This document shows, piece after piece, positions 50,363 through 61,912 of a stretch of 64,000 nt of DNA (position 1 is its first letter; each line of letters starts with the position of its first letter). The DNA comes from Salinibacterium sp. PAMC 21357 (GTDB lineage Bacteria; Actinomycetota; Actinomycetes; Actinomycetales; Microbacteriaceae): NCBI RefSeq assembly GCF_000247645.1, contig NZ_AHWA01000004.1, forward strand, positions 558,001 to 622,000, in the 5' to 3' direction. The translations under genes were made by a program, and so were the position numbers. Under the pieces are notes generated by a model. That model was not told where the DNA came from and did no database searches. It saw nothing but the letters and a program-made list of their open reading frames with translations.

Positions 50363-50494
50363 CTGGTGACTGCACGCGAACAGTAGTCTCGGTGATGATC
50401 GCGGGGAACGCCCCTGCCCAGGCACGCGCTGCGATGACTGCCCGATAACCGCTGCCGCACACCGGCTCGAGTGAACACCGATGGAGGCCCAGCT

Positions 50495-51160
50495 GTGACT
50501 GAGGTTCTTGACCCCGCCCCGCGTCCCTACAGTTTTGGTCGCGGAGTCGCGTTCGCGTTGCTCGCGATCCCGCTGGCGGTAGCAGTGACGACGGTGCTGG
50601 CGTCGCTGGGCTTCGGATTCGCTTCAGCTTTCGCCGCGGTCGGGATGCTCGCCGTCTTCGCGCTCTTCACGTTCGGTTCCCGCCGCAAAGCCATCAGCGG
50701 CGCCGGCTTCGCCCTGAGCACTCTGATCGGCGCTATCGCTGTGACGCTCGGGTTCATTAGCGGATACCTCGCCGCCGTCTACCGCTCCTTCATTTCGGCC
50801 GGCGACAAGGGCGGTGTGTTCGGCAGCGTCTTCGCCCGCCGGGTCGAACTCCAGCTCAGCAATAGCATTCTCGAGGCGCTAATCCCGGCGCTCCTCGTGA
50901 TCGTGTTCTCAATCATCCTGGTGGTGAGCGCGGGCCGCAGTGCCCTGGCCGCTCGTCGCGAAGCTGCCGACGTTCACACCGCTGACACTGTGGATGGGTC
51001 GGGTGTTCCGGATGCTGACGCCGCCGCTCCGGCAAACGCTCCCGCCTCCGCCACTCCGCGCAGCAGCCCCGGTATTCTGCTGAATGGCGAGCCGCTCGCG
51101 ACTCAGCCAGAGAAGAAGAGCCTCTGGAATCGATCAGCCGCCAAGAAGGATCAGCAGTGA
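50495..51160 (+). CDS. Small membrane protein of the SPGILLNG family (copy 1)
   Basis: The product is 221 residues from the GTG at 50495, which has GGAGG seven bases upstream; an earlier GTG at 50471 is poorer. After RPYSFGRG come four hydrophobic segments (FALLAIPLAVAVTTVLASLG, SAFAAVGMLAVFALFTFGSR, FALSTLIGAIAVTLGFISGY, EALIPALLVIVFSIILVVSA). A variable hydrophilic region follows, and then the C-terminal motif SSPGILLNGEPL (residues 190-201). Three relatives lie at 59691-61912. The family has no assigned function. It overlaps the MutT-like gene by four bases. Confidence 0.8.
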   Translation: MTEVLDPAPRPYSFGRGVAFALLAIPLAVAVTTVLASLGFGFASAFAAVGMLAVFALFTFGSRRKAISGAGFALSTLIGAIAVTLGFISGYLAAVYRSFISAGDKGGVFGSVFARRVELQLSNSILEALIPALLVIVFSIILVVSAGRSALAARREAADVHTADTVDGSGVPDADAAAPANAPASATPRSSPGILLNGEPLATQPEKKSLWNRSAAKKDQQ

Positions 51161-51555
51161 AGAAACAGATCAACGTCGTCGGCGCGGTCATCGTGGGCGA
51201 TGGTCTGATCCTGTGCGCGCAACGTGGGCCGGGTGGCGCTTTGCCCGGCATGTGGGAGTTTCCCGGCGGCAAGATCGAGGCCGGCGAGACTCCTCGCGAT
51301 GCGCTCGCGCGAGAGATCACCGAAGAGCTTGAGTGTGAGGTGTCGGTGGGCGAGCTGATCACCACGACCACTCACGAATACGACTTCGGAATCGTCGCGC
51401 TGACCACGTTCTACTGCGGGCTGCTCTCCGGAACGCCGGTGCTGACCGAGCACGCGGAGGTGCGGTGGCTCGCACCCGCCGAACTAAGTTCGCTCGACTG
51501 GGCGCCTGCTGATATCCCTGCGGCCAAACTCATTGAGAAGGCGGCGAGCGCCTAG
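51157..51555 (+). CDS. MutT-like NUDIX hydrolase (8-oxo-dGTP or CTP pyrophosphohydrolase type)
   Basis: The product is 132 residues. It has the full NUDIX box GGKIEAGETPRDALAREITEEL, with the glycine, arginine and glutamates in place. The opening INVVGAVIVGDGLILCAQRG is that of nucleotide-cleaning MutT and CtpP-type enzymes. The start overlaps the previous gene (ATGA-type). With lhr and the Nei-like gene upstream it suggests a role in oxidised-nucleotide defence. Confidence 0.92.
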   Translation: MKKQINVVGAVIVGDGLILCAQRGPGGALPGMWEFPGGKIEAGETPRDALAREITEELECEVSVGELITTTTHEYDFGIVALTTFYCGLLSGTPVLTEHAEVRWLAPAELSSLDWAPADIPAAKLIEKAASA

Positions 51556-51765
51556 AGGCAACAGACCTTCGCGAACGCGAACCCTTCGGCCGAGATGCCA
51601 ACTTCGGCTACGTTGACAGCTCCATCCGACTTCGAAAGCAGACCGGGCGTCGTGTAGCGTCTCGGTTAGATGGGATATTTTCGACCCTTGATCTGAAGCT
51701 AGTTGCTTATTACGCACGACGCCACCCCGCCTCAACGAAGCGATCGGAATCTACGACTCAAGAAG
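51556..51765. other. Boundary between the repair genes and the restriction island
   Basis: A gap of 210 bases with no gene, between convergent genes. The base composition falls from the GC-rich repair genes to the AT-richer island at about 51600. I found no integrase site or tRNA here. Confidence 0.4.
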
Positions 51766-52146
51766 CTACGTTGCTGGCATCCTGAGCAATGAATGAGGGT
51801 TGAGAATGCGGGCGACGAGACCTTCGATAATTCGGACTTGAGATGACGGGGTCCCGTGGCGTAGAGGAATAATCGAAATAAGCACCCAACTACGACCCCG
51901 CGGTGTCGTTAAGTGTTCCCGCATTCGACCGCGGAGACCTTGTTGGTCCACTCGGCAAACTGAGCCAACGTACGAAACCGTTCGACGAATGTCGATCGCA
52001 ATGTAAACAGCGGAATCTACGCCGGCCCACTTTTCTCCAGCAATTATGGATTGCGGGGGCACTAGGTCTTCGATGTAGCTCCTAACCCATTCACCGCCTT
52101 CACGATGCGCCGCGAAATAGTGCTCCGGCGAGAATTTATAGACCAT
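51766..52146 (-). CDS. GIY-YIG-like nuclease
   Basis: The product is 126 residues from the ATG at 52146, two bases after the stop of the upstream gene. It shows a GIY-like strand (VYIA, 47-50), a YIG-like strand (YVG, 59-61), an arginine helix (LRGRMREHL, 71-79) and a conserved Glu108 in VRIIEGLVARILNPHS with Asn116. This is the order of the GIY-YIG core. It is short and appears to be the single domain plus a 45-residue lead. In a restriction-modification setting it could be a second nuclease or a repair nuclease. Confidence 0.7.
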   Translation of the reverse strand: MVYKFSPEHYFAAHREGGEWVRSYIEDLVPPQSIIAGEKWAGVDSAVYIAIDIRRTVSYVGSVCRVDQQGLRGRMREHLTTPRGRSWVLISIIPLRHGTPSSQVRIIEGLVARILNPHSLLRMPAT

Positions 52147-52148
52147 CT

Positions 52149-54203
52149 CTACAACGGATCGTCTAGCGCTTCGTTGTCGGATGCGAGCGCCAATTTGCGA
52201 GCTCGAGTGATCTGATCTTCCAAAGACTGCGCCCAACCTTGGACACGGTAAACAACCTTCTGAAGTTCTCCAGCTTCGGCTGCTAGCGGCGCACCTTGCG
52301 ACACGATCAGCGCTGGCGAGCCCTCATCGTTGGTCACCGAAATCTGCCCTATTACGTCGACTCTCTCCACCAGATTATTAACCTCTTGTCGAAAGACTGA
52401 AATCTGCGAATTTAGTCTGGATTGAGGGCTCTCGGGAAGTGGCCCCGGGTCGCTTGAGTCTCCGGCTACCGCCCGAAGCCCCGCGGCATCCAACAACTCA
52501 CCTGATTGGATCACGGCGTCCACCGGGTCGGAGGCGCCCTTCACATTCTGAGGTAGGCGTGCGCCCCGGCCGTCGAGAATTACCTGAGCGAGCTGCGTCA
52601 ATCCTGCTTCAGAGGAAATTAGCGCCTCTACGATCACATTCGGCTCGCTGATATATCCGGCTCCTCCCGCTTCCTTCTTCGTTGCGCGCTCAAGTAAGCG
52701 CCGGCCGGGCGTCCCTAAGAGATGGAATAGCGCCAACGCGGACAACTCCGCCGCGAAAGGTCGCGGCTTCTGCTCTGAAAGGCTGTCCCTCGACTCGCTC
52801 AGCTCTAGGTGCGCCAGAGCCAATAGATCTTGGATCGGCTCTCTAGAGAGTTGGACGCTATCGAGGAACCGGGGTCGAATCGCTCTGTCAAGCGCACTCC
52901 TTCGAGAATCGAAGGATGGGTCGTCGGCCTGGGTACCTGATGCTAACTCGCCTAGTCTTAATGCGAGATCTGCCGCCAGCATCGTGCGGTCGGAACGAGA
53001 GGGTGTCTGGCCGGTCAAGTCTCGCACGGCCGCATTGGTGATTCGGACGCGACGATCATTGCGCCCCGTACTCGACCTCAGCGCGGCTAACCCCAGCAGG
53101 AAGACCTCATCCGGCCTGATCGCAGCGCGTCCATCCTGCAAAGTCGTTTCGGATGAAGCGACAAACGTTGAATTAAGCCCGAAAGCAGTCGCTACCTCAG
53201 TTGCTGAAAACTCAGGAATTGGAGGCAGGTCGTCAGACGCTGCGAGAGCATCGATAGCCGCCGTCGCCTTGAGCGCATATTGGGTTCCCAAAGAAAACGG
53301 CTTGGCCGGTTCGATGTGGATGTGCCCAACTAGTTTTCTGCGAACTTGATCGAACGTCAGGTTCGCCGCCTCAGTCTGTTCCTGAAAATCAGAAAACCCA
53401 ACAATGATTTGAGCTCTGAGCATTACGGATCCTCGCAAGCGAGCCCGGTCTTCGTCCGAAAGGTGCAAACCAATTTGATCGTTCGGGTCGTGCGGGTTGA
53501 CGCGCAATTTGACTAACTCTTGGCGTAGCGACTGGTCCTTCGCAGGGTCAGAATACTTCCAAAGCACGTCCCGGGAGCTTATGCCCAGAGCTTTGTGTGC
53601 CCCTACTGTCCTTCCAAAGCCGTCAGTTGCGTCCAAGAAACCGACGGTGCCGTGTTCAGGACTTTCGATTCGGGCGACGGACAGAAGGCCCGGGTTTTCT
53701 ATACCTCGAGATGGGATCGACTTAGCGTGGTCATTTGTGATCCAGACCGCCTCTACCTCTGAATCGAGGCGCGTCACAAACTCAGTTTCAGACTCGACAT
53801 CTAACAACAACACTGGCATCTCCGTCGCGATCGATTGGTACCGCGGCGCAGGATTATTAGCACGAACTCGAGTCTCTTCAAACCGAACATTCTCGGGCGA
53901 TGGCAGAATGTGCCAAGTGACCACATCCAGCTCGATGAATTTGACGGCGATAGCCCCGTACCTGCGCGTTCTGACTCTTCGTATGGCTTCTCGAATTTGG
54001 CCGAGATCGGCAGCCGCAGAAGCGATCGTGGCAGCATCGAACGCCTCTATTCCGAATGCCTCGGTCAGCTGCAAAGCAGCTGCCTCTCTGCTGCGAGGTC
54101 GCTGATCCGCAATCGCGCTGCTCATATACCCGTGCGGCGTCTGACTAAAAGCACCTTCTCCGTCAAGAGACTCAGCGGGCAGGGATTCGCTCGGTGTATT
54201 CAT
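52149..54203 (-). CDS. Uncharacterised 684-residue protein of the restriction island
   Basis: I do not recognise a family. The central part (about residues 80-270) resembles ParB/DGQHR-type proteins in outline: LPSPENVRFEE, EMPVLLLDVESE, TNDHAKSIPSRGI and especially FLDATDGFGRTVGAHKALG, which echoes the DGQHR motif of DndB-like proteins. This is a weak resemblance only. The rest is mostly helical with acidic and Ser-rich parts and no membrane helix. GC content and codon use are lower than in the neighbours. The two-base gap to the GIY-YIG gene suggests the two products act together. Confidence 0.7.
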   Translation of the reverse strand: MNTPSESLPAESLDGEGAFSQTPHGYMSSAIADQRPRSREAAALQLTEAFGIEAFDAATIASAAADLGQIREAIRRVRTRRYGAIAVKFIELDVVTWHILPSPENVRFEETRVRANNPAPRYQSIATEMPVLLLDVESETEFVTRLDSEVEAVWITNDHAKSIPSRGIENPGLLSVARIESPEHGTVGFLDATDGFGRTVGAHKALGISSRDVLWKYSDPAKDQSLRQELVKLRVNPHDPNDQIGLHLSDEDRARLRGSVMLRAQIIVGFSDFQEQTEAANLTFDQVRRKLVGHIHIEPAKPFSLGTQYALKATAAIDALAASDDLPPIPEFSATEVATAFGLNSTFVASSETTLQDGRAAIRPDEVFLLGLAALRSSTGRNDRRVRITNAAVRDLTGQTPSRSDRTMLAADLALRLGELASGTQADDPSFDSRRSALDRAIRPRFLDSVQLSREPIQDLLALAHLELSESRDSLSEQKPRPFAAELSALALFHLLGTPGRRLLERATKKEAGGAGYISEPNVIVEALISSEAGLTQLAQVILDGRGARLPQNVKGASDPVDAVIQSGELLDAAGLRAVAGDSSDPGPLPESPQSRLNSQISVFRQEVNNLVERVDVIGQISVTNDEGSPALIVSQGAPLAAEAGELQKVVYRVQGWAQSLEDQITRARKLALASDNEALDDPL

Positions 54204-54486
54204 TTGATTTCAGCTCATTTCTAATGAAGACTCCAGCCTACGGCCGCATATGAACGTAGAAACAACCCCAGTTATGGGGCACCGACGGTTTCTCCCCCAC
54301 TCCGATATTCCATCGGCCCCTAGCGCCTTCGGCGCGAAAGCGGCTAGCTCCCATGCACAAGCGATTCGGATTATCTAGGCACCGTTTCGGCGACGGAGCT
54401 AGAATTCTGTTCGTCCAGATTAGGAACTTTTCCAAATACGCGAGCCCCTTAGCCCCATCATTATTTCGAGCGTGACAGCCAGAACG
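54204..54486. other. Gap within the restriction island
   Basis: 283 bases without a credible gene, between the 684-residue protein gene and the endonuclease gene, both on the minus strand. It includes CCCC-AGTTAT-GGGG (54265-54279 region), a small inverted repeat. It probably carries the promoter of the downstream two genes, but I cannot name the boxes. Confidence 0.4.
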
Positions 54487-55658
54487 TCAATCGCCTGCAG
54501 TTAGGTCATAACTATCCGCGGGCGGGAAGAGTAAGTCACGGTTTTTCGGCAACAGCTTGAACAAATAGCCCTTGTCATGAACCTTCGAGCCTTTGGACGA
54601 GATTGTGAAATCAAGCGAAATGGTGCCGTTTGATAGCGAAGGCGCCAGCTGCGCGATGATCGGTTTGCGCGTGTGTTGAACAGTTTTGAAGTGAAGGTAC
54701 TCCCAGCCATCAATCTTTTTCGAACTAGCCTCAACCCAAAAAGTCTCATCGTGTTTTTCAGATAGCTTGTAGCGGAGCGTTTCCAGATCCCACACGACTA
54801 CGTTCCCATCAACAGATGGCTCGTGGGCTACAGAGAGCGAGTCTTTCGTTTCGTGGACGACAAGCCGAAGCCCCTGCGAGTTAGATTTATGTCCGTCGAT
54901 CTGGCAGTAGAGCTTTCTACGATCCCCTCTCTCGTAGCCGAACGCATCGAGCAGCTCACGCGAACTATGGAAGTTTGACTCGGGCCACGCGGGCGTCTTT
55001 GCAAATAGACTCGTCCTGTTCCTAGATGCACGCGAAGACTTGATCTCGATACCTTTGAAGTCCGGTTGGGAACGCGAATTCATCTCGATTCCGAGCTCAG
55101 ATTCGAGGAGTCGACCAATAGCCGTCGAACCGTCGACTGGAGCTCGAATGAAGCCCTTCGCTGAAATCACACGCAACAGGGAGAGCAGCTCCCGTACATT
55201 CGAAGTCTTCTCCGATACGAAGTCTCCGAGCACATCCGCTAGCGCGGGCTCTGCCAGCATGCGTTCCGCCAATCGACCCAACGAAAGATTAACCACCCAA
55301 AACTGAGCGCGGGACCAAATCACGGCGATGATCTGGTCGTGAGCCGCGACGGACGCCAGCGAAGTGATCCACAGTCGAGGATCTCCTCTGCCATTTGCAC
55401 GGTACAGACTAGTTTTCGAGCCCAGGCGGCGTCCCTGATCTCCGATGAGACTCGTCGAAATGATGCGCTTATCGATGCCCCAAGCCTGAGCGGCGTAATC
55501 GTGAATGCCAGAGGAAGCAACGAACTCGCGGAACAAGTCAGTCGCGTCCAAAATGACTTCGTTAGCTGGGTGCCAGTGATTTCGACAAGAGCATAGGGAA
55601 CGTCGTACGAAGTGAGGTATGCAGCATTATCTAGTTCCTCAGGAGTTAGCTCACGCAT
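54487..55658 (-). CDS. MvaI/BcnI-family type II restriction endonuclease, with a one-base frameshift
   Basis: Cuts unmethylated DNA, monomeric in characterised relatives. The N-terminal frame begins at ATG 55658 (AGAGG upstream) and reads MRELTPEELDNAAYLTSYDV then PYALVEITGT. The remainder continues in another frame as PANEVILDATDLFREFVASS. Adding one C to the CCC run (GGG at 55568-55570 on the plus strand) joins them and gives 390 residues. The catalytic PD-(D/E)XK motif is SQPDFKGIEIKSSR (Asp200, Glu205, Lys207 after correction), preceded by GSTAIGRLLESELGIEMNSR. MvaI cuts CCWGG and BcnI cuts CCSGG; specificity here is not known. Confidence 0.82.
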
Positions 55659-55743
55659 TATTTTGCCTCTCCATGCGACGATATATCGGTTGCTACGAAA
55701 CCTACCGCGCACGAGCACAGAAGAGCAAAACTCGCGTTTCCCG

Positions 55744-57120
55744 CTAGAGCACGTCCGCGATCATCATTCCAACCGCTAGTGAGAGAAATGGCGACACAGC
55801 ATTTCCCACCTGCGAGTACTGCGGAACTTCGAATCGACGACGGAGTGATCCGGTAGTTTCTTTTCCGCGGAATTCGAAATCATCAGGGAAGCCTTGAAAA
55901 CGTGCCATTTCACGCACAGTGAAAATGCGTGGCTCGCTAGGGTGCACGTAATCGTCCGGCAAAGTGACAACGGTGCGCGCGGGCTGGGACCAGTCCAGTG
56001 CCTTCTGCGAATGCTTCTTCGTCTTAAGCTCAACCATCAGGTCGAACATCGACTCTGCCGAGTCTGCAAGAAGCGCGCCGTCAGGGGCGATAGCTGGATA
56101 CTTTGCGTCCGCTAACTGCAATCTGACATGCGAAGCGGCTTCCGCCGGCCCGCTGGAGAGCTGGGACAGCAATCGCGGTTGGAGTCCATTGTCTCGAAGC
56201 CACTGGTAAAGGCGGAATCGTTGAGTCGTGGATTCGCTGTGCTTGCGCGGCGACTGGTTAGGCAAATGCTCGCGTCGAACTTTCGACTTGGGGAGGCCCC
56301 AGAGCGTTCGCGTAGAAGTGGATTTGTGGAACGCCGTGGACCGACGGCTCTTGGGCGCAGGAAGCACGTCCTGCAAATCACCGATTGCATCTGCGATTGT
56401 GGGCGACTCTTTCGACGAGACAGTCGGGTTGGGCGCGAGAGCCGGCGCGGGCTCAAACTTCTCGTCGTCGGTAAATGCCGACTTCCAGAGGCGCCCCGTG
56501 GCCTTGATTCCCCGCTGCTGTGCGACATCTGAGCGCATTCCAATGATCATCAACCGGGGACGGTTTTGTGGTGCGCCGTAGTGAACAGCATTGACGGCTA
56601 CGCCTTGAACTTCGTAACCCGGCTCAGTCTCACGCAAAGCCTGCTGCAATTGAACGAAAGGCGCTTCTTCATCAGGCGAGAACTTGTGGCTCATACCGAC
56701 CACATTTTCGATCACCACCATTTTGGGAGCTGTGCGCTTTACAAACTCGAGGTACTCCCACGGCAGCGTATTCCGGACATCGTCTGGATTGCGGCGTCCG
56801 GCCAGAGAGAATCCTTGGCAAGGCGGCCCACCGACGACGACGTCAATTCCTGAGCTTGCGAGCCCGGCCATGGCAACTTCGTTGTCGAGCACGTCGCGAA
56901 GCGCTGAAACTGCGACTCGGTTCTGAACTTGATTTTCGATCGACGACTTAACGTATGCCTTCCAAGAATCGTCCTCAATCGATTCGTCGATGAAGTTCGC
57001 ATAGAAGGTGTAAGCCGCCATGTCGGATTTTTCGACCGCAAGTTGGAGTTCTCCTCCGGAGCGTTCGATGCCCAGTGAAAGGCCGCCGCATCCGGAAAAG
57101 AGATCTACATAGTTGTACAA
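55744..57120 (-). CDS. DNA (cytosine-5) methyltransferase
   Basis: Protects the host against the neighbouring endonuclease. The TTG at 57120 with AAGAGG upstream gives MYNYVDLFSGCGGLSLGIER (SAM motif I). Motif IV is VVVGGPPCQGFSLAGRR with catalytic Cys101, then IENVVGM (motif VI), QNRPRLMIIG (motif VIII) and the C-terminal motifs REMARFQGFP and VGNAVSPFL. The target-recognition region lies about 215-375. At 458 residues the enzyme is of normal size. There is no N-terminal regulatory extension, so control is likely at the promoter. Confidence 0.95.
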   Translation of the reverse strand: MYNYVDLFSGCGGLSLGIERSGGELQLAVEKSDMAAYTFYANFIDESIEDDSWKAYVKSSIENQVQNRVAVSALRDVLDNEVAMAGLASSGIDVVVGGPPCQGFSLAGRRNPDDVRNTLPWEYLEFVKRTAPKMVVIENVVGMSHKFSPDEEAPFVQLQQALRETEPGYEVQGVAVNAVHYGAPQNRPRLMIIGMRSDVAQQRGIKATGRLWKSAFTDDEKFEPAPALAPNPTVSSKESPTIADAIGDLQDVLPAPKSRRSTAFHKSTSTRTLWGLPKSKVRREHLPNQSPRKHSESTTQRFRLYQWLRDNGLQPRLLSQLSSGPAEAASHVRLQLADAKYPAIAPDGALLADSAESMFDLMVELKTKKHSQKALDWSQPARTVVTLPDDYVHPSEPRIFTVREMARFQGFPDDFEFRGKETTGSLRRRFEVPQYSQVGNAVSPFLSLAVGMMIADVL

Positions 57121-57168
57121 GGGTCCTCTTAAAAGTTTGGTGGGGGATCTTTGGTGCCGGCCCTGCTT

Positions 57169-57201
57169 CGAGAGTATATGTTCTCTCGCGAGGAGTCCAG
57201 G
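57169..57201 (-). promoter_or_regulatory. Predicted methyltransferase promoter with palindrome and CCAGG site
   Basis: On the minus strand TATACT (57178-57173) is a good -10. Seventeen bases upstream lies CCTGGA (57201-57196), which contains a CCWGG sequence (plus strand CCAGG at 57197-57201). The -10 lies within the inverted repeat CGAGAG-N8-CTCTCG (57169-57188), a possible operator. The TTG start is about 50 bases downstream. Confidence 0.5.
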
Positions 57202-57360
57202 TGGGGCTCAAAGTCGCTGCAGAATTCGCGCTGTGAGGGACAAGTTACCCGGAGCCACCGTCAGTCCCTTGTTCTGTCTGACGAGCACGTATCCGATAAA
57301 AAATCTTGCTCGGCAGCGACCGACCAATGAAAAGTCAGCACCCCCTGACACACTAGCCAC

Positions 57361-59574
57361 GTGACAGATACCCGCACTGAGGCCTTGACCGTTCTTCGCA
57401 CACTTGTCGGCAATGAGACTGCCGATTTTCATGAGGGGCAGTCTGAGGCGATTGAGACGCTCGTCGATGGGCGCCGCCGTGCGCTCGTGGTGCAGCGCAC
57501 CGGGTGGGGAAAGTCCGCCGTCTACTTCGTTTCCACCCTGCTCATGCGCCGGCGAGGTGCGGGCCCTACCGTGCTCGTGTCGCCACTGCTCGCGCTGATG
57601 CGTGATCAGATTGCCGCGGCATCCCGCGCCGGAGTTCGGGCCGTCGCCATCAACTCCACCAACCCCCACGAGTGGGCTGAGGTTCAGCAGCAGCTCGCCA
57701 ACGACGAAGTTGATGTGCTGCTCGTCTCGCCCGAACGCCTCAACAACCCCAGCTTTCGCGACAACCAACTGCCCGCGCTGATCAACCGCATCGGGATGCT
57801 CGTCGTCGACGAAGCGCACTGCATCAGCGACTGGGGCCACGACTTTCGCCCTGACTACCGCCGCCTGCGCGAACTCATCGCCACCATGCCCACCGGCGTG
57901 CCCGTGCTCGCCACCACCGCCACCGCCAACTCTCGAGTCGTCGCCGACATCGCCGCGCAGCTCGAAGGCGGGGCAGGCGGCGGTACCGACGGCACCGCTG
58001 GCGTCGAAAGCTCCGTAAGCGCCGCGAGCGCCACCGACACAACCGCCACGGCAGGCATCGAAGTCGTCACCATCCGCGGACCCCTCGCGCGAGCATCCCT
58101 GCGCCTGGGCGTACTGAAATTGCCGGATGCCCGCGCCCGCCTCGGCTGGCTGCTAAGCCACCTCGCCGAACTGCCCGGCAGCGGCATCATCTACACGCTC
58201 ACCGTCTCGGCCGCCGAAGACACCGCGCGACTGCTGCGCGACAGCGGCATGGATGTGCGCGCCTACACCGGCAAAACCGACCCGCAAGAACGCGAAGAAT
58301 CCGAACAGGCGCTCAAGAACAACACCGTCAAAGCGCTCGTTGCCACCAGCGCCCTCGGCATGGGATTCGACAAGCCCGACCTCGGCTTCGTCATCCACCT
58401 CGGAGCTCCTTCTTCTCCCGTCGCGTACTACCAACAGGTCGGGCGTGCCGGGCGTGCCACCGACAACGCCGACGTGCTGCTCATGCCCGGGCCCGAAGAC
58501 CGCGACATCTGGGAATACTTCGCCACCTCATCCATGCCCGACCAAGCCAACGCCGAACTCGTGATCTCCGAGCTCACTGCCGCCGCCGACTCAGGCGCCG
58601 GGCCCGTCTCCACGCCCGCGCTCGAAGCGCGCGTGAACCTGCGCCGCAGTCCCCTCGAACTGCTGCTCAAAGTGTTGGATGTCGACGGTGCCGTCGCCCG
58701 CGTGCAAGGCGGCTGGACCGCCACCGGCCAGCCCTGGAGCTACGACGCCGAACGCTACGCCGGAGTCACCGCCGCCCGCCGCGCCGAACAACAAAACATG
58801 CTCGACTACGAACAACTCCCCGCCGGCACCGAAGGCTGCCGCATGGAATTTCTGCAACGCGCCCTCGACGACAACACCGCCACCCCCTGCGGCCGCTGCG
58901 ACAACTGCGCCGGCATCTGGTACCCCACCGACATCACCACGGATGCCACCAGCCGCGCCACCGCCACCCTCGACAAAGTCGGCGTCCCCATCGAACCCCG
59001 CGCCCAATGGCCCACCGGAGCCGACAAAGTCGGCGTGCCCGTGCGCGGACGCATCAACCCCGACCAACGCTCCCTCGAAGGCCGTGCCCTCGCCCGCCTC
59101 ACCGACCTCGGCTGGGGCGGCACCCTGCGCACCCTCTTCGCCCCCGGCACCCCCGACGCACCAGCAAGTCCCGCGCTCGTTGCCGCCTGCGTGCGCGTAC
59201 TTGCCGACTGGGGCTGGGATGAGCGACCCGTCGCCGTCATCTCGATGCCGTCACGCCGCCGACCACAACTCGTGGCATCCGTCGCCGAAGCGCTCTCCAG
59301 CGCCGGCAAGCTGCCCTACCTCGGGTCGCTCTCACTCACCGGTGATGGACCACAGGGTGAGCCCGGCGGCAATAGTGCCTACCGGTTGGCCAGCGTGTGG
59401 CAACAGTTCGAATGGGCTGGCGGCGGTGAATCCGGCAACGAGCTACCCAACGGGCCCATCCTGCTCGTCGATGACCTCGTCGACTCGCGCTGGACACTTA
59501 CGATCGCCGCGAAAGCACTCCGCGAAGCCGGGGCGGATGCCGTACTCCCGTTCGCGCTAGCACTCCGCGGCTAG
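57361..59574 (+). CDS. RecQ-like DNA helicase with phosphoribosyltransferase-like C-terminus
   Basis: The product is 737 residues, GTG start. The helicase core has VQRTGWGKSAVYF (Walker A), VVDEAHCISDWGHDFRPDYR, TTATANSR, and ATSALGMGFDKPDL with QVGRAGRATDNAD. A zinc motif CRMEFLQ...CGRCDNC follows. The C-terminal 130 residues carry LPNGPILLVDDLVDSRWTLT, the PRPP-binding signature of phosphoribosyltransferases. Such fusions are known in actinobacteria, but the role of the tail is unclear. A short duplicated motif DKVGVP occurs twice in the linker (about residues 540 and 556). It is divergent from the methyltransferase. Confidence 0.9.
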   Translation: MTDTRTEALTVLRTLVGNETADFHEGQSEAIETLVDGRRRALVVQRTGWGKSAVYFVSTLLMRRRGAGPTVLVSPLLALMRDQIAAASRAGVRAVAINSTNPHEWAEVQQQLANDEVDVLLVSPERLNNPSFRDNQLPALINRIGMLVVDEAHCISDWGHDFRPDYRRLRELIATMPTGVPVLATTATANSRVVADIAAQLEGGAGGGTDGTAGVESSVSAASATDTTATAGIEVVTIRGPLARASLRLGVLKLPDARARLGWLLSHLAELPGSGIIYTLTVSAAEDTARLLRDSGMDVRAYTGKTDPQEREESEQALKNNTVKALVATSALGMGFDKPDLGFVIHLGAPSSPVAYYQQVGRAGRATDNADVLLMPGPEDRDIWEYFATSSMPDQANAELVISELTAAADSGAGPVSTPALEARVNLRRSPLELLLKVLDVDGAVARVQGGWTATGQPWSYDAERYAGVTAARRAEQQNMLDYEQLPAGTEGCRMEFLQRALDDNTATPCGRCDNCAGIWYPTDITTDATSRATATLDKVGVPIEPRAQWPTGADKVGVPVRGRINPDQRSLEGRALARLTDLGWGGTLRTLFAPGTPDAPASPALVAACVRVLADWGWDERPVAVISMPSRRRPQLVASVAEALSSAGKLPYLGSLSLTGDGPQGEPGGNSAYRLASVWQQFEWAGGGESGNELPNGPILLVDDLVDSRWTLTIAAKALREAGADAVLPFALALRG

Positions 59575-59690
59575 CGCCGCCTGGGCTCCCGGCTAACGCG
59601 GCACATAAATAATCGTGCTGGCGAGCCAACATTCGCTATCCTTGAAGTGGTTGCAACTCTGCGGAATTAGTGCGATCGGAGGTCGCCACA

Positions 59691-60401
59691 GTGTCAGATT
59701 TCTCCGTGAAACCCCACAACTTCGCCCTCGGCGCGTTCCTCTCAGTGCTAGCAATACCCCTCGCGATCGCCGCAGCAGCGATCATCGGCCTGCTGGGAAC
59801 TGGGGTCGCGGCCGCCGTCGCCGCGATTGGCATGTTTGCCGCATTTCAACTCTTCGCCCTAGGCTCACGTGGCCCCGTCAGTCGAGGCCGCGACTTTCTG
59901 TTCGCCCTCGTCGTTGGAGCCATCGCGACAGTCCTCGGAGCACTCGCGGGACTGCTCACCGACGCCTACAGTTCCTTCGTTGCCGGCGGCGGCACCAGCG
60001 GCATCCTCGAGAACATACTCGCCGGACGCGTCGAGCTCCCCTACCCCACTCGCCCAGAAGAGGTTGCGGTTCCCCTCACCATCACCGCCGTCCTCGCCAT
60101 ACTCGCCGTCGTCATGAATGCGGCCAAAGCTCTCGCTGTTCACCGCGACAACATCATGGCCAAAGCCAACACTGTTGCAACATCAGCCACCACCCACCTA
60201 GAAACTTCGCGAACCGCACTGACATCATCCGCCAAGAATTCAGCGAACTCCGCCAACCGGTTCGCCAACCACGTCATGACGATCAACACCTCGTCACCGG
60301 GCATCCTGCTCAACGGCACACCACTGGGCGAACAAGGCCAGCCCAAGAAACATCTATGGCACGACTTGCGCGACATGATCTACAAAGCCATCCGGGGTTA
60401 G
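59691..60401 (+). CDS. Small membrane protein of the SPGILLNG family (copy 2)
   Basis: The product is 236 residues from the GTG at 59691 with GGAGG at 59678-59682. VKPHNFALGAFLSVLAIPLA opens the first of four membrane helices. The loop after helix three (DAYSSFVAGGGTSGILENIL) matches the corresponding RSFISAGDKGGVFGSVF loop of copy 1. The tail carries TSSPGILLNGTPLGEQ (residues 200-215) and a charged end. It is probably the first gene of a three-gene run with the next two copies. Confidence 0.8.
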   Translation: MSDFSVKPHNFALGAFLSVLAIPLAIAAAAIIGLLGTGVAAAVAAIGMFAAFQLFALGSRGPVSRGRDFLFALVVGAIATVLGALAGLLTDAYSSFVAGGGTSGILENILAGRVELPYPTRPEEVAVPLTITAVLAILAVVMNAAKALAVHRDNIMAKANTVATSATTHLETSRTALTSSAKNSANSANRFANHVMTINTSSPGILLNGTPLGEQGQPKKHLWHDLRDMIYKAIRG

Positions 60402-60530: not shown

Positions 60531-60580
60531 GAAAAGGTGCTCGGTGAGAGATTCCCGCCGCACCCGCAGAGGTGATTACC

Positions 60581-61156
60581 GTGTCAGAGATGTACACAAA
60601 CCCCGGCCCCGGAAACTACGCGACCGCAAAAGGGCGCATGTTTGAGGCCGAAGCTCAAGCCAAAGCCACCAGCGCACAAATTGGCGGCAACATCCTGCCC
60701 CGACCAATACGGCCCTACAACTACACCCGCGGAGTACTGTTCTCACTCCTGACCGTGCCGATCGCCGCCATCCTCGTTGCAGCATTCGGGCTCAATTCTC
60801 CCGCCGCCGGCGTCGCAACAACACCTTTCGCCATCGCCATAGCCTTCAGCCTTTTTGCCTACGGCTCCGGCCGCTCCCCCGTCGTGGGGCGCAACTTTCT
60901 GGTACCCAGCGGAATCGGCCTCATCACCATGATCGTGGGCATCCTTATCAGCTACCCCTACAGCCTCTACCTCTCCTTCATCTACGAAGAGCGTGCCGGA
61001 AGCATCCTGAGCCCCGCATTCGCCACCTACCTGACAACCCGGCTCAGCGAGGACTCCGGCCAGATCATCATCCCCATCACCGTGGTGTCAGTGATTGCCG
61101 CGGTTATCCTGTTCCGAAAAGCACGAGCAGCCTTAGCCAGCACCACCACACCGTGA
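60581..61156 (+). CDS. Small membrane protein of the same family, lacking the C-terminal motif (copy 3)
   Basis: The product is 191 residues from the GTG at 60581; an earlier in-frame GTG is at 60572. A longer N-terminus (residues 1-40) precedes RPYNYTRGVLFSLLTVPIAA, the family's first helix. Further helices are FAIAIAFSLFAYGSGRS and GIGLITMIVGILISYPYSLY, and a last helix follows QIIIPITVVSVIAAVIL. The sequence stops after ARAALASTTTP, so the ILLNG motif is absent. It is the most divergent copy. Confidence 0.78.
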   Translation: MSEMYTNPGPGNYATAKGRMFEAEAQAKATSAQIGGNILPRPIRPYNYTRGVLFSLLTVPIAAILVAAFGLNSPAAGVATTPFAIAIAFSLFAYGSGRSPVVGRNFLVPSGIGLITMIVGILISYPYSLYLSFIYEERAGSILSPAFATYLTTRLSEDSGQIIIPITVVSVIAAVILFRKARAALASTTTP

Positions 61157-61159
61157 TGA

Positions 61160-61912
61160 GTGCCGTCAAAGACTGACCCGCCAGCACCACCAACGAACGT
61201 CTCCGACATGCCCGATCAGCCCGTCGCCCCGCCAACAAAGCCCTACAACTTTGTGCTCGGAGCACTCGCCTCAGTGCTCGCGATCCCCATCACCATTGCG
61301 ATTGCCGTCATAATCGGTCAGTTCGGGTGGGACTTTGCTGGCGCAGGCGGCGGTATCGGACTGATGGTCGCGTTCGCACTCTTCGCTTCCGGATCGCACC
61401 GCGCTGTAGTTCGCGGCGCAGGCTTCGCCTTCGCCCTCCTCATCGGCACCATCGCCGCCGTTCTGGCCGTCATCGCCGGCTTCCTCTCCGCCGTGTACCA
61501 CGCCTTTACCGCGGTCGGCGGCGACGGCGGATTCTTCGGAAGCGTATTCGCCGGACGAGTCACCTACCGCCTCACCGAACACCCCGTCGACCTCATAGCT
61601 CCCGCCGCGATCGCTGCGTTCATGACCATCATCCTGCTCATCAAATACTCGAGACTAGCGATCGAAGCACGAACTGCATCCCAAGAAACACGAGGTTTCG
61701 GGGCAGCCCATCGCGGCGCAGCGGTTCACCAGGCAGAGCCCCACAACGCAGAGCCCCACAATCGAGTGCCCCGCGACGCAACGGCTCTGGATGTTGCTGC
61801 TCCCGATCACACGCCGCCTGCCGCCCCTCCGGCCACCATCAACGCATCCTCCTCCGGAATCTTGCTCAACGGCAAACCTCTCAACGACCAAGAGCCGAAG
61901 AAACCTTTCTGA
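61160..61912 (+). CDS. Small membrane protein of the SPGILLNG family (copy 4)
   Basis: The product is 250 residues from the GTG at 61160, three bases after the previous stop; an ATG at 61208 is another possible start. TKPYNFVLGALASVLAIPIT opens helix one, GGGIGLMVAFALFASGSHRA helix two and GFAFALLIGTIAAVLAVIAG helix three. The loop YHAFTAVGGDGGFFGSVFAG is close to copy 1. A hydrophilic stretch with a repeated AEPHN follows, then NASSSGILLNGKPLNDQEPK. It completes the cluster. Confidence 0.8.
   Translation: MPSKTDPPAPPTNVSDMPDQPVAPPTKPYNFVLGALASVLAIPITIAIAVIIGQFGWDFAGAGGGIGLMVAFALFASGSHRAVVRGAGFAFALLIGTIAAVLAVIAGFLSAVYHAFTAVGGDGGFFGSVFAGRVTYRLTEHPVDLIAPAAIAAFMTIILLIKYSRLAIEARTASQETRGFGAAHRGAAVHQAEPHNAEPHNRVPRDATALDVAAPDHTPPAAPPATINASSSGILLNGKPLNDQEPKKPF

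Follow-up and report, generated by a model that had tools for sequence, protein, structure and literature searches.

A mobile two-gene module pairing an unclassified large protein with a predicted GIY-YIG nuclease in a restriction island of Salinibacterium sp. PAMC 21357

Background

The proteins SspE, DndI and GmrSD/BrxU (DUF262/GmrSD_N plus HNH) carry the motif D-G-x-x-R, with an indispensable arginine, in a recogniser half that is joined to a nuclease, and are encoded in defence islands, as described in the relevant parts of PMC13251355 and PMC11662687; in SspE and DndI, mutation of the arginine of DGQQR is reported in the same parts to abolish NTP hydrolysis and to leave defence ineffective or diminished. 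A DGxxR-type motif is also present in DndB, which has been placed in the ParB superfamily by an opinion published in PMC10853773. On the nuclease side, GIY-YIG domains are found in CMoRE (PD-T4-3), a type IV restriction enzyme in which the nuclease is nearest to UvrC and carries an extra tyrosine (GIYxY-YIG), while the recognition region has a novel fold (PMC12923530, in the part concerned with the enzyme's architecture), and in SNIPE (DUF4041 plus GIY-YIG), a membrane-anchored single protein that acts in phage defence, according to the part of PMC13190303 that deals with it. Eco29KI-type enzymes represent the GIY-YIG fold among type II restriction endonucleases.

Here we describe a pair of adjacent genes, hereafter L and S, from a 64,000-nucleotide stretch of the genome of Salinibacterium sp. 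PAMC 21357 (the window), which resembles each of these systems in part. L has D-G-x-x-R in common with SspE, DndI and GmrSD, as it has a motif of this type in common with DndB; however, the presumed nuclease is a separate GIY-YIG gene rather than a fused HNH domain, and the helical C-terminal part of L is far larger than in those proteins. GmrSD_N and GmrSD_C, which make up the one-protein DUF262/DUF1524 layout, matched none of the 33 L sequences that we collected. S, like the CMoRE nuclease, is nearest to UvrC, but CMoRE is one protein where L and S are two, and L is unrelated to it by any search run. The likeness to SNIPE is limited to the GIY-YIG domain, with the membrane-anchored, single-protein design of SNIPE setting it apart and with no match to DUF4041 in either L or S, and while the S model does match R.Eco29KI, S follows L and not a methylase of its own. 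In the literature searched, no description of the L+S pair was found.

Results and discussion

Layout of the locus and its surroundings

The features of the locus are collected in Table 1. An earlier note, made from the letters of the window alone, had placed two genes, two bases apart, in a restriction-modification island of lower GC content, and this description is borne out: both ORFs are intact, the ATG of S (52146) lies two bases past the stop codon of L, and GC content, measured in 2-kb windows, is 0.54-0.56 between 52 and 57 kb versus 0.65-0.69 at 44-51 kb and 57-60 kb. The genes of the island are those for a C5 methylase, an MvaI_BcnI enzyme, L and S, and no dnd genes were seen between 44 and 62 kb of the window.

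Table 1. Coordinates of the L+S locus, its sequence motifs and its neighbours in the window
Feature	Position	Strand	Basis
S, 126-residue GIY-YIG nuclease (predicted)	51766..52146	-	invariant catalytic residues; model; UvrC PDB match
Codon GAA of the predicted catalytic Glu108 of S	51823..51825	-	sequence; invariant 16/16
L, 684-residue unclassified protein, proposed recogniser/switch	52149..54203	-	intact ORF; 33-member family aligned
DGFGR motif, L residues 194-198	53610..53624	-	Arg198 33/33; residue 194 D or E 33/33
N....SI...G box, L residues 157-167	53703..53735	-	Asn157 33/33; Gly167 31/33
N-x-R box, L residues 105-107	53883..53891	-	Asn105 31/33; Arg107 32/33; NPR 14/33
MvaI/BcnI-family restriction endonuclease, 354 aa, neighbour	54487..55551	-	PF15515, E 2.3e-60
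C5 cytosine methyltransferase, 458 aa, neighbour	55744..57120	-	PF00145, E 3.6e-52
NUDIX gene, flank, one hotspot edge	51157..51555	+	PF14815/PF00293; edge conserved in six relatives
RecQ-like helicase, flank, other hotspot edge	57361..59574	+	Pfam scan; same-genus matches

The interval between the NUDIX and recQ genes (51555-57361) is an insertion hotspot with restriction-type cargo. Both edges are kept in six relatives of the same genus, in which the DNA between them varies from about 1.1 to 6.0 kb and, by blastn, shares nothing with the island of the window. Pfam search of ten cargo proteins from four of these six relatives yielded HNH, C5 methylase, GmrSD_N/GmrSD_C, RelA_SpoT, NaeI and PLD-helicase-DUF3427 assignments, with GmrSD proteins occupying the hotspot in two relatives, and in two further relatives the cargo is, by eye, like the PLD-helicase-DUF3427 type. 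The RecQ-like gene was found in 12 same-genus genomes among the matches listed, with varying strength, and in full length in six. Its product has a C-terminal phosphoribosyltransferase-like stretch and scores 715 bits against the PsyrT model of PADLOC; because relatives, too, have the gene at the edge of the hotspot, this model may over-call what is an ordinary resident gene. Similar small proteins, membrane-like by eye, are encoded on both sides of the hotspot (50471-51160, 59670-60401, 60572-61156 and 61160-61912), three of the four ending in a GILLNGxPL-like motif, and Pfam gave no match for the three of them that were scanned.

Genes for restriction-modification, Mrr or AbiE proteins were recognized by Pfam near six of the 17 L+S loci inspected (the window, L006, L007, L052, L134 and L135), and the other 11 contexts contain no known defence gene among the chosen ORFs scanned, these counts being of L+S loci alone. 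In one of these genomes (G035), a 254-residue protein with no Pfam match is encoded between a C5 methylase and L (L007, 6840-7604).

The small protein as a candidate GIY-YIG nuclease

The earlier note had recognized a GIY-YIG core in S, and alignment and modelling both speak for it. Residues Y48, Y59, G61, R74, H78 and E108 are invariant in an alignment of 16 S sequences, in which the two motif tyrosines, the catalytic arginine and the metal-binding glutamate of GIY-YIG enzymes are present; Glu108, previously chosen as the position for a nuclease mutant, is thus the right glutamate. Matches to PF01541 are sub-threshold in six of the nine S homologues scanned (the best at 22.1 of 22.6 bits, E 1.9e-4), and the GIY-YIG models of Pfam gave no match for S of the window itself. 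An AlphaFold2 model of S built from four sequences reached a pLDDT of 79.9 and a pTM of 0.76, and, when compared with the PDB by Foldseek, had the GIY-YIG domain of UvrC (1yd6) as its best match (prob 0.98, E 0.046) and R.Eco29KI as its fourth (prob 0.25), with nothing below E 0.001. A sequence search of the PDB with the S profile returned UvrC as its sole match (E 0.3). As judged from sequence and model, S is a predicted GIY-YIG nuclease with an intact nuclease site.

The large protein and its motifs

Only N157, R198 and G534 are invariant among the 33 L sequences. The motif pointed out earlier as DGQHR-like, FLDATDGFGRT (residues 189-199), is real to the extent that Arg198, which closes DGFGR, is one of these three positions; the exact DGQHR, however, does not occur, and the family has DGFGR or, more generally, D/E-G-x-x-R instead, with D at position 194 in 24 sequences and E in nine, and G at position 195 in 24 of 33. 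The relation to DndB that had been read from this motif did not hold up, as PF14072 matched none of the 33 L sequences and no other Pfam family matched significantly either; we rejected DndB membership on these grounds. Nor are dndCDE genes among the neighbours of L in the island.

Sensitive homology searches, which the earlier note had called for, led from S to UvrC and the GIY-YIG domain, but gave no significant Pfam, NCBIfam, PADLOC or PDB match for L. Pfam yielded a significant match for none of the 33 L sequences, as did NCBIfam, and PHROGs had no match to L of the window. PADLOC-DB 2.0.0 (2023), searched with the 33 L and 16 S sequences, returned single weak matches only (best E 0.0088). 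In the PDB, a six-row profile of full-length L had no match, and a 33-row profile of its N-terminal part had four, at chance level. The L family is absent from the libraries searched (Pfam, NCBIfam and PADLOC). The AlphaFold2 model of L, built from the window protein and four relatives, has a pLDDT of 44.9 and is too poor for use, and Foldseek on this model gave no usable fold match, its output being meaningless.

In our reading, the N-terminal half of L carries three boxes, N-x-R, N....SI...G and DGxxR, arranged in the same order as in ParB_N and the proteins of the ParB superfamily. In profile comparisons by hhalign, for which the ParB profile was drawn from 29 of 30 loci and the GmrSD profile from 15 of 21, L scored 17.0 against ParB_N, with a shuffle mean of 12.6 and 5 of 100 column shuffles equalling the score, while its score against GmrSD_N was equalled by 3 of 100, both P values being uncorrected. 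In the ParB_N alignment, the profile score of which is marginal, SIxxxG and DGxxR of L fall on SIxxxG and GERR, respectively. A comparison with DndB (1 of 100 shuffles) was discarded, as several of its six DndB rows were in the wrong frame. It is possible that the N-terminal half of L is akin to the ParB superfamily. In three genomes, two ORFs share the L region between them (L150-L154, L044, L045 and L040), and the split genes in L044, L045 and L040 suggest that L is a two-part protein.

Linkage and co-divergence of the two genes

Of 37 distinct L loci at which the presence of S could be assessed, 19 have S directly 3′ of L on the same strand, and 18 lack it. This set leaves out L026 (at a contig end), a fragment in G381 (L013, L019 and L041), the fragments L046 and L048, duplicates of one locus and, of the two copies in G793, the second (L047); it includes L137, despite a match over only the last 66 residues of in-frame L, L042, counted as S-bearing, and the split L genes L040, L044 and L045. 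A four-base overlap between the stop codon of L and a possible start codon of S is present in 16 of the 19 S-bearing loci, and the remaining three spacings are +2 (the window), +4 and -1.

Distances among L proteins and among S proteins are correlated with r 0.963 over the 15 pairs present in both alignments, near-copies among which help the correlation, and none of 9999 permutations gave a value as high. In the phylogeny of L, the locus of the window joins four further loci that have S (support 99/97), in a clade nested within a group of 12 loci, 11 of them S-bearing (support 100/100). The presence of S requires six gains or losses on this tree, its deep placements being unsure due to long branches. 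L and S thus form a real, conserved and co-diverging pair, and, since this pair is also found without neighbouring restriction-modification genes, the earlier view of a separate module stands.

With 18 of the 37 judgeable loci lacking S, L can apparently act alone, and the fact that about half of its loci are of this kind argues that L either does something by itself or works through a different effector. A gene for a WhiB-plus-HTH regulator, recognized by Pfam, lies downstream of the S-less L in L020 (709-1362), and by eye such a gene is likewise located downstream near the S-less L017, L018 and L021.

Distribution and mobile carriers

L is sparsely distributed. In the window's genus it occurs in 1 of 27 genomes, i.e., the window's own, and is missing from 26; in searches that included the window's genome, it was detected in 2 of 297 genomes of the order, in 6 of 394 of the class (profile search) and in 2 of 396 of the phylum. 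The genus of G448 yielded L in 27 of 295 genomes by profile search. Scans of genome contigs added three loci, an earlier scan having yielded none; S accompanies L in two of the three and is missing from the third, which is from Crossiella.

By tblastn, L was found in four Streptomyces plasmids, with S behind each, and, without S, in a Mesorhizobium plasmid; these matches come from a plasmid-only collection, and their number is biased. The phage records searched contained no L, and among viral contigs one carries L+S. In L051, L is situated beside Tn7-like genes (TnsA-, TnsB- and TniB-like). L+S is a mobile two-gene module with a predicted nuclease. In G793, L+S is present twice (L033 and L047), with one copy about 22 kb inward of either end of a linear-looking contig of 8.1 Mb, and L042 is located about 8.5 kb from where its contig ends.

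Proposed function and alternatives

We propose, with about even confidence, that L+S constitutes a self-contained, stand-alone two-gene restriction cassette directed against invading DNA, the defensive role being suggested by its genomic context. The cutter would be S, a small GIY-YIG endonuclease by sequence and model, and the overlapping or near-overlapping reading frames suggest that L and S would be made in a fixed ratio through translational coupling. L would bind DNA, or some feature of it, through the N-terminal half that bears the three boxes (N-x-R, N....SI...G and DGxxR); Arg198 would serve a nucleotide-dependent switch, by analogy with SspE and DndI, and L would recruit S to foreign DNA or unleash it there. 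The adjacent m5C restriction-modification system would be a separate defence sharing the island.

A more specific version of this proposal is offered tentatively, at clearly lower confidence: L may found a new, distantly ParB-like branch of DGxxR switches that licenses a separate GIY-YIG nuclease, forming a split counterpart of SspE and DndI whose cue would be a mark on invading DNA or the state of that DNA. In Actinomycetes, plasmids, prophages and Tn7-like elements may have carried such a branch from host to host, and an older form of L that acts without S would have reached Mesorhizobium.

The location of copies on mobile carriers raises the alternative that L+S, as well as L alone, serves the carrier by excluding or destabilising rival plasmids or by blocking conjugation, as Osa, a ParB/Srx protein, is reported to do. 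All four of the plasmid L+S loci and the orphan Mesorhizobium L are on large plasmids, several of them near relaxase or T4SS genes, and the G793 copies, situated towards the two ends of a linear contig, would fit such a role as well; however, the plasmid count is biased by its plasmid-only source, and the copies in the window, L007, L134 and L135 reside on chromosomes or long contigs beside restriction-modification genes. We consider this alternative unlikely, if the best placed of those that compete with the restriction cassette.

Mobile carriers are also expected if the pair behaves in a toxin-antitoxin-like manner, with S as a DNase harmful to the host's DNA once released and L as the partner that restrains it, to the effect of abortive infection or addiction. 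The tight coupling of the genes, with the partner L encoded first, agrees with this arrangement, as does the position of S, which in the L loci examined is always behind a stretch of L (in L137, its last part only), the latter point being weak because the loci examined were L loci to begin with. At about 680 residues, L is large for an antitoxin, and 18 L loci have no S to restrain, making this reading less probable still.

There is little likelihood that L+S is an accessory of the adjacent m5C restriction system, contributing, for example, repair or extra cutting at methylated or mismatched sites. A C5 methylase adjoins L+S both in the window and in G035, where it is accompanied by a Vsr repair enzyme, but at other L+S loci AbiE is the neighbour, or genes of type I or type ISP-like systems are, and at some no restriction-modification gene could be seen; in the window, moreover, a gap of about 284 bases lies between the restriction gene and L. 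An accessory role of S in the MvaI-type system was also considered and ranked low. Homing enzymes often contain GIY-YIG domains, and this frequency, together with the patchy distribution of L+S, would suit a free-standing pair of homing or mobile endonuclease type without benefit to the host, an explanation rendered highly improbable by the co-divergence of S with a large conserved partner, the variety of insertion sites and the recurrence of the pair in defence-rich places.

Conclusions

If L+S, the proposed restriction cassette, restricts phages or plasmids, it would add a two-protein system to the small set of GIY-YIG defences, with L as a recogniser from a family that none of the libraries searched contains, and would let one ask if the DGxxR switch, fused to its nuclease in proteins of the SspE type, also operates when switch and nuclease are separate proteins. 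Further systems in the window's genus, in turn, could readily be sought in the NUDIX-recQ interval.
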